From the NCBI GenBank assembly GCA_020051695.1, contig JAGVQM010000012.1, forward strand, positions 132,361 through 196,360: DNA of 64,000 nucleotides, in the 5' to 3' direction. This stretch comes from Candidatus Zixiibacteriota bacterium. Its GTDB lineage: Bacteria; Zixibacteria; MSB-5A5; WJJR01; JAJRUJ01. The position numbers were made by a program, and so were the translations under genes. Below the pieces are notes generated by a model, which saw nothing but the letters and a program-made list of their open reading frames with translations, had not been told where the DNA came from and searched no databases. Of this stretch, positions 61,008 to 62,861 are shown piece after piece. Each line of letters opens with the position of its first letter. The first letter of the stretch is position 1.

Positions 61008-62300
61008 ATGATAGCCAAACGACATCTGATTCGCTGTCTGGGGCCGCTGGTTGTTCTTGCGGCCGTGATGCTGCCACATGCCGCGCCGGCCGAGCCCGGG
61101 CCGCATACAATCAGCATGCATTTTGTCGACACGGAAATTTCCGCAGTGCTGGCCACGCTTGCCGCCCAGGTGGGGATCGACCTGGTCCTGGGGCCGGGGA
61201 TCGAAGGTCCGATCAATATCAACCTCAACGAGGTCGACTGGAAGACTGCGCTGAATGTCATCGTGGGCGCCAATGGACTGACCTATCATTGGACGGATAA
61301 TGTGCTGGTCATCCTGGCCGCCGGAATGTCCGGCGGCGGCGAACTGTTGCATCGGGTAATCCCCCTAAAATACGCTGATCCGGCGTCGGTCAAGACCGCG
61401 CTGGCCAATGTCCTTTCGACAGTCGGCCGCATTGAAATTCTGGGTGGCGGGACGGGGAGTTCAACGGGAAACGCATCGGTCCTGATTGTCAGCGAACTGG
61501 CATTCCGCATGCCGGGCATTGAAGAGTTAATCAAATCGCTTGATGTTCCCCGGCCGCAATTCGAAATCGCAGTGAAATTTGTCGAAACCGACATTGACGA
61601 CGACCTCGGCTATGGCTTCAACTGGCCGACTAAACTATCGGCCTCCGTCGGCATTGTCGACGAAACCGAAGGTTCTACCACAACGCAGACTAGTGTATCG
61701 TCAGTGGAACGCGAGCTGCCGGACCACAACGAATGGCGGGTGGGCAAACTGTCCATTTCCCAGCTTAGCGGGTTCCTCGAATTCCTGCAGCAAAACGGCG
61801 AATCGAAATTACTTTCCGATCCGCGCGTGACCGTGCTGGAAAACGAAACCGCGAATATGAAAGTTACCACCACCTTCCCTATCCAGACCTTAAGCCGTTT
61901 CACCGAAGGCGCGGTGATCCAGGACATCGTCGATTTCCAGGACCTCGAGGTCGGGATTACGCTGAAAGTAACGCCACGGTTGAATGACTCGGCGACGATC
62001 ACCCTCGATGTCGAGCCGATCGTCGAGGAAATCACCGGCTACACCGGCCCGGCGGACAACCAGCGGCCGATCACGGCCCGCCGCACGGTGAAAACCATGG
62101 TACGGGTCGACGACAACGAGACCATCGTCCTCGGCGGGCTAGTCCGGGAAATTAAGGTCGTCAACGAAAACGGTGTCTTTTTATTGAGTGAAATTCCGCT
62201 TCTGGGTTCGTTATTTAAGCATAAACAAGTCGAGACCAAGAAAACCGACCTGCTGATTTTCATCACCCCGCGCATTATCGACGAATTGGCGGGAACGTAG
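61008..62300 (+). CDS. secretin (PilQ/GspD family)
   Basis: 430 aa with signal peptide (VVLAAVMLPHAAPAEP). N-terminal STN/N0-like domain (ISMHFVDTEISAVLATLAAQ), an N1-type repeat (HRVIPLKYADPASVKTAL), then the secretin beta domain with LLSDPRVTVLENETANMKV, LEVGITLKVTPRLND, VRVDDNETIVLGGL and IPLLGSLFKH. It forms the outer-membrane channel. Shorter than classical GspD, having fewer N domains. Confidence 0.93.
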   Translation: MIAKRHLIRCLGPLVVLAAVMLPHAAPAEPGPHTISMHFVDTEISAVLATLAAQVGIDLVLGPGIEGPININLNEVDWKTALNVIVGANGLTYHWTDNVLVILAAGMSGGGELLHRVIPLKYADPASVKTALANVLSTVGRIEILGGGTGSSTGNASVLIVSELAFRMPGIEELIKSLDVPRPQFEIAVKFVETDIDDDLGYGFNWPTKLSASVGIVDETEGSTTTQTSVSSVERELPDHNEWRVGKLSISQLSGFLEFLQQNGESKLLSDPRVTVLENETANMKVTTTFPIQTLSRFTEGAVIQDIVDFQDLEVGITLKVTPRLNDSATITLDVEPIVEEITGYTGPADNQRPITARRTVKTMVRVDDNETIVLGGLVREIKVVNENGVFLLSEIPLLGSLFKHKQVETKKTDLLIFITPRIIDELAGT

Positions 62301-62337: not shown

Positions 62338-62482
62338 AATCCAGTGAACAAGTTGCTATTTAGACTGTTCCCTTGCCACAGCGTCCCTGCCAAGCAACAT
62401 AATAATCGGCCGCAGTTTTGCCAAACTGGGCCGCCTGCGGCCGCGTACAACGTACAATAACGAATGTCAAGACGGAGGCGGG

Positions 62483-62809
62483 ATGGTCAACATCAGCGAC
62501 AAAGCGGGCGAGGAAATCAAAAAAGTCCTCGACCACGACGACTACAAGGGCAAGAAACTCGTGCTATATTTTCAGGGCGCCGGCTGAAGCGGCCCCTCTT
62601 TGGGGATGACTCTGTATGAGTCAACGGACGGCCTGAAAGAATGTGAATCGGGCGGGGTAAAGGCCTACATCGATTCGGGACTTTACGATCAATTGGAAAA
62701 AATCGGCGATATCAGCGTCGATTATGTAACTAATCAGATCGGCCAGAGCGGCTTCAAAATCACCATCGGTAACGGCGACTGTAAGTCAGGCGGTTGCAGT
62801 GGCTGCTAA
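62483..62809 (+). CDS. HesB-like (IscA-family) selenoprotein, Sec35
   Basis: 108 aa if the in-frame TGA at 62585-62587 is read as selenocysteine; GGAGG lies 4 nt before the ATG. The N-terminal part (NISDKAGEEIKKVL, LVLYFQGAG) and the C-terminal part (SGPSLGMTLYES to CKSGGCSGC) are in one frame and both match HesB/IscA-type proteins. The TGA stands where GAGC-SGPS is expected, giving GAG-U-SGPSLG, the known HesB-like selenoprotein motif. A hairpin fitting bacterial SECIS geometry follows. A terminator lies just after the stop. Read as two pieces it would be a pseudogene, but both halves are intact. Confidence 0.85.
62608..62622 (+). promoter_or_regulatory. candidate bacterial SECIS hairpin
   Basis: GACTC (62608-62612), loop TGTAT, GAGTC (62618-62622). 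The apical loop starts about 25 nt after the TGA and has G in its second position, both within the range described for bacterial SECIS elements. A second small hairpin CCCC/GGGG (62593-62605) lies nearer the TGA. Confidence 0.5.
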
Positions 62810-62836: not shown

Positions 62837-62861
62837 GCCCCCTCTGCGGGGGCTTTTTTTT
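62837..62861 (+). terminator. intrinsic terminator after the selenoprotein gene
   Basis: GCCCCC (62837-62842), loop TCTGC, GGGGGC (62848-62853), then T8. A textbook rho-independent terminator 28 bp after the stop codon. Confidence 0.92.

Follow-up and report, generated by a model that had tools for sequence, protein, structure and literature searches.

The stretch of DNA analysed here (the window, 64,000 nucleotides from a Candidatus Zixiibacteriota bacterium) carries on its forward strand a reading frame with one internal TGA, which raises the question whether this triplet ends translation or specifies selenocysteine (Sec). The gene comprises 108 codons from an ATG at 62483 to a TAA at 62807-62809, and the TGA at 62585-62587 (codon 35) is the sole interruption of the frame. 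A Shine-Dalgarno sequence GGAGG lies at 62474-62478, and a Rho-independent terminator with a 6-bp all-GC stem (GCCCCCTCTGCGGGGGC + T8) follows at 62837-62861. With the TGA read as U, the product would be MVNISDKAGEEIKKVLDHDDYKGKKLVLYFQGAG-U-SGPSLGMTLYESTDGLKECESGGVKAYIDSGLYDQLEKIGDISVDYVTNQIGQSGFKITIGNGDCKSGGCSGC. A preliminary description of this DNA had recognised the same frame, ribosome binding site and terminator and had expected gene calling to yield the C-terminal fragment alone; all of this was borne out, the plain list of open reading frames giving for this gene nothing but a 69-residue C-terminal piece at 62600-62809.

Judged from sequence comparison, the gene almost certainly encodes a 108-residue selenoprotein of the HesB/IscA fold (A-type carrier-like) with Sec at the UGA, and we infer that Sec is actually inserted in the source organism. 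This reading, the one proposed in the preliminary description, is supported by the frame itself, the machinery genes in the genome, the UGA common to all aligned homologues, purifying selection on both of its sides and the conservation of hairpins at synonymous sites. Upstream of the gene lies a secretin gene (61008-62300, Pfam Secretin 1e-43) within a pilus/type II secretion-like cluster, which has no evident link to the selenoprotein.

Family, fold and possible role

HesB-like selenoproteins have been on record since about 2006. The joined protein matched NF038090 (IscA_HesB_Se) with 4e-14 and 52.7 bits, model positions 1-101 covering residues 1-107, TIGR01911 (HesB_rel_seleno) with 3e-10 and 40.5 bits, and Pfam Fe-S_biosyn with 3e-4. 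The C-terminal piece alone gave a family match of 1e-4. The claim that both halves belong to the HesB/IscA family as one protein is therefore confirmed by the extent of the NF038090 match. The two HesB-selenoprotein models are the best-matching ones for the window protein; the relationship is, however, less close than had been implied, since the scores miss the curated cut-offs of both models (85 bits for NF038090 and 66.35 bits for TIGR01911). The Pfam match likewise stays under its curated cut-off.

Of 147 related genomes, 87 yielded homologues in a search that allowed read-through of stops, and 79 of these have a TGA-containing copy. The resulting alignment comprises 79 distinct Sec sequences from eight families of the class, with two sequences from one genome (G058) and without the truncated copy of another (G114), which was not extracted. 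All 79 matched both models, the best E-values being 6.9e-20 and 1.7e-12, values that by our estimate again mean scores short of the cut-offs. Among eight Sec-bearing relatives scored outside the class, seven likewise fell below, and only L138 passed NF038090 (101.6 bits). For this reason we regard the curated cut-off as a threshold for annotation and not as a biological defining feature.

By sequence, the nearest solved structure is HI1723 (E 3e-6), in which the Cys of GGGCSG aligns with the UGA residue. An AlphaFold model built from two sequences showed its best Foldseek matches to HI1723, IscA and SufA; since its confidence is low (pLDDT 60.7), no Sec-Cys geometry was drawn from it. By the NF038090 match and this model, the HesB/IscA fold extends over the full length of the protein, and the UxGP motif is present as GAG-U-SGP with the UGA standing in for the codon of the first ligand Cys, in line with the earlier placement of the TGA at the family Cys. 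Compared to the known HesB-like selenoproteins, the window protein shares the position of Sec (GxGUxGP), the fold and a hairpin after the in-frame UGA, but it scores under both cut-offs and carries a longer C-terminal Cys tail (CxxxxCxxC). It is a well-supported addition to this family and not a surprise. Compared to the A-type carriers IscA, SufA and ErpA, the fold is the same according to sequence and the low-confidence model, and their first ligand Cys is the residue aligned with Sec35, whereas the window protein has Sec for this Cys, followed by GP, and no CGCG tail motif. This C-terminal ligand motif of the canonical carriers was found in none of the 79 Sec copies; a canonical A-type carrier that does have CGCG is encoded separately in the same genome (L109).

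The Cys tail of the window protein (62780-62806) comprises Cys100 (62780-62782), Cys105 (62795-62797) and Cys108 (62804-62806), of which the last two are kept in at least 90% of alignment A2. Homologues have one to five tail Cys, mostly three (three in 66 of 79), and hardly any other Cys is conserved. Invariant among the Sec homologues are G32, U35, G37, P38, G41 and L44.

The function of the family has been described as unclear, and for the HesB-like selenoprotein of M. maripaludis, identification through mutagenesis and 75Se labelling has been reported (PMC11097638). Sec35 and the C-terminal Cys cluster on an A-type-carrier fold suggest either metal or Fe-S binding or selenol redox chemistry, and with low confidence the protein may work via these residues. 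The binding and handing over of a soft metal or Fe-S unit comes close to an even chance. A selenol-dependent redox enzyme, in which Sec35 and a tail Cys would form a selenenylsulfide, is a tentative but serious alternative that is compatible with Sec insertion, and the choice between the two roles is nearly even. Sec usually occurs in redox sites (PMC13188914), Sec35 together with one to three tail Cys makes up almost all Cys-like residues that are kept, and both the missing CGCG motif and the separate canonical carrier fit a protein that is not itself a carrier. On the other hand, the fold matches that of IscA, with Sec35 placed where IscA has its first metal ligand, and neither UxxC nor CxxU motifs are present. 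Gene-neighbourhood clustering revealed no conserved neighbour hinting at function; the neighbours, for example glutamate dehydrogenase, vary between families.

Two tandem hairpins behind the UGA

The criteria for a bacterial SECIS element were taken from the bSECISearch model (PMC13188914): a stem of 4-16 bp, a loop of 3-9 nt with a G in the first two loop positions, a distance of 16-37 nt from the UGA and a free energy of at most -7.5 kcal/mol. Two hairpins follow the UGA on the forward strand, helix 1 with 4 bp (CCCC-UCUUU-GGGG, 62593-62605) and helix 2 with 6 bp (UGACUC-UGUAU-GAGUCA, 62607-62623). Helix 2 agrees with the published geometry, having a 5-nt loop UGUAU that lies 25 nt from the UGA and contains G within its first two positions, followed by U. 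The SECIS-like hairpin noted in the preliminary description is accordingly present, but the one that fits the geometry is that at 62607-62623 and not the CCCC/GGGG hairpin nearest to the UGA, and the element is a pair of hairpins. Stem, loop, position of the G and distance correspond to the bSECISearch type, whereas the second selected 4-bp hairpin between the UGA and helix 2 sets the window element apart from it. The folding energy is -7.1 kcal/mol for helix 2 alone, slightly short of the threshold of -7.5 kcal/mol, and -15.5 kcal/mol for both helices together. A hairpin of the same shape at the same offset follows 6 of the 1958 TGA triplets on both strands of the window, that at 62585 included. 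An Rfam scan of the region gave chance matches only.

The inner 5 bp of helix 2 are formed in 76 of the 79 sequences, compared to 3.0 ± 1.7 (maximum 9) expected if synonymous codons are sampled by usage. Compensatory changes occur within the class, namely GGUUC/GAACC in L070 and GGCCC/GGGUC in L071, one pair varies between G-U, A-U and G-C, and another lineage shows a changed stem GUCUC/GAGAC. In simulations on the tree, pair 24-36 of helix 2 was not significant by paired count (p 0.23; mutual information p 0.02) because its columns vary too little, so that the support for this helix rests on the synonymous-codon null. Shuffling codons for the same amino acid within columns says little about helix 2, since its codons are nearly invariant.

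For helix 1, the covariation exceeded both the synonymous and the phylogenetic null. The complete helix is present in 51 of the 79 sequences, compared to 10 ± 3 expected, and when independent evolution was simulated 1000 times along the protein tree, the value of pair 8-20 was never reached (0/1000), with a paired-count p of 0.004 for pair 11-17. The outer pair of this helix joins the wobble bases of two codons that specify Gly in every sequence, and constraint on the protein can therefore not explain it. When the window gene is compared with four relatives, the codons of the SECIS show strongly reduced synonymous change, with a pS of 0.11-0.39 compared to 0.61-0.87 elsewhere. Measured against these nulls, both hairpins are maintained far beyond what protein coding requires.

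Outside the class, helix 2 is built from other bases that still pair in the Sec copies L133, L137, L138 and L140, and both helices are present in L138, the relative above the NF038090 cut-off. In L132, L135 and L139, helix 2 was not seen at the corresponding offset.

In the proposed mechanism, SelB with Sec-tRNA-Sec would bind the apical hairpin at 62607-62623, selenocysteine would be inserted at the UGA as residue 35, where A-type carriers have their first ligand Cys, and translation would continue past the UGA to the TAA. The insertion of Sec by SelB at 62585 has as strong a backing as can be had from sequence. It is conceivable, though we consider it rather doubtful, that the SECIS of HesB-like selenoproteins is in general a two-part element in which both tandem hairpins are needed for full Sec insertion, unlike the standard single stem-loop. 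Helix 2 would then bind SelB, and the UGA-proximal helix 1 would act before or during the arrival of the ribosome; this early action is proposed because during decoding of the UGA a part of helix 1 is inside the mRNA channel of the ribosome.

Decoding machinery and cysteine copies

The source genome (3.53 Mb, 98.9% complete) contains a tRNA-Sec at C6:152281-152374 (69.9 bits), for which ARAGORN gave the anticodon tca. The gene selA adjoins this tRNA gene and selB adjoins selA, the SelB match of 342 bits lying above the cut-off. Two copies of SelD were found, one of which (L016) has an in-frame TGA at 1528 and its own hairpin GGUCC-GGU-GGACC. Together with the machinery genes, this copy makes it very probable that at least one further selenoprotein is made and that the genome decodes Sec. 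With tRNA-Sec, SelA, SelB and SelD all present, the decoding of Sec by this organism, which the preliminary description had implied, finds its genetic basis. The other SelD has Cys and is fused behind a NifS-like cysteine desulfurase (L015:325-2529 on C38, 734 residues), a domain that was named by eye from its sequence.

Over the 147 genomes, the co-occurrence of the UGA gene with SelB and tRNA-Sec shows the expected tendency but falls short of significance (p = 0.08), since the Sec trait is present in almost the whole class. In six drafts with the UGA gene (G033, G037, G047, G074, G090 and G130; 66-96% complete) SelB and tRNA-Sec were both below threshold, which is probably due to missing contigs. 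In a sister family of the same order (f2, G002-G008), SelB and tRNA-Sec are mostly kept and the HesB-like selenoprotein is absent, which suggests a loss.

Copies of the gene with Cys in place of Sec serve as natural controls. Those of the class are nested inside the Sec clade of the tree, from which we conclude that they arose from Sec copies. The G of the loop is absent in all four Cys copies of the class and the stem is lost in three of them; the copy of G078, the most Sec-like one, keeps a remnant. The hairpin is also lost in the Cys copy of G156, a genome outside the class. For Desulfitobacterium hafniense, a Cys-containing member of the HesB-like family with remains of a SECIS has been reported (PMC1794560).

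Three lineages, represented by G078, by three genomes of one genus in the class and by G156, have genomes in which a Cys copy precedes a Sec copy. The neighbouring pairs are L026 (G078), L065 (G044), L075 (G105), L076 (G109) and L134 (G156), always with the Cys copy upstream and with gaps below about 0.3 kb, except for about 5 kb in G044. They belong to at least three separate lineages, one of them outside the class. Such pairs could act as a switch that depends on selenium, or their products could form a heteromer.

These data also bear on the possibility that the UGA specifies an ordinary amino acid, either by global reassignment or by near-cognate decoding as Cys or Trp. Canonical family members do have Cys at this position. 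However, TGA closes 17 of the 36 long open reading frames of the window, which shows that UGA is not globally reassigned, and 32 homologues of the selenoprotein themselves end with TGA. Furthermore, the genome possesses tRNA-Sec and SelB, and the SECIS hairpin is under selection and degraded where the codon is Cys. Decoding as an ordinary amino acid is therefore highly improbable compared to insertion of Sec.

Conservation and selection across the class

Between the window gene and four relatives, codons 1-34 showed a dN of 0.19-0.46 and a dS of at least 1.3 or saturated, and the picture after codon 47 is similar. By these estimates, purifying selection acts on both sides of the UGA in all pairs tested. 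The earlier observation that both halves are conserved thus holds, as the part upstream of the UGA is present in the 79 homologues and dN lies well below dS on either side.

Viewed alone, a frame broken by one stop and intact elsewhere resembles a pseudogene or a sequencing or assembly error, in which a Cys codon became TGA and merely fragments are made. This explanation was rejected and its probability is negligible, since all 79 aligned homologues, which come from many independent genomes, have TGA at this very codon, purifying selection acts on both halves and the synonymous sites downstream preserve the hairpins. Two separate short peptides, the second starting at an internal TTG at 62600, would match the 69-residue fragment of the list, but are just as improbable, as this TTG is kept in just 38 of the 79 homologues and the fragment alone is a weak family match.

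A scan of contigs with the single protein matched one relative, in Candidatus Zixiibacteriota, and a search of a plasmid collection with the protein gave no match. In the genomes searched by reading through stops, the distribution is broad: with 79 of 147 genomes, the class related to Candidatus Zixiibacteriota uses the HesB-like selenoprotein widely; the genes concerned are cut short by ordinary gene callers and score below the current NCBI family cut-offs. Conservation of the SECIS at synonymous sites, extending over two neighbouring hairpins, is seen with unusual clarity in this set, and the Cys copies that lost the element provide built-in controls. The tandem-hairpin SECIS and the repeated tandem pairs of Cys and Sec genes are modest extras beyond what is known of the family.
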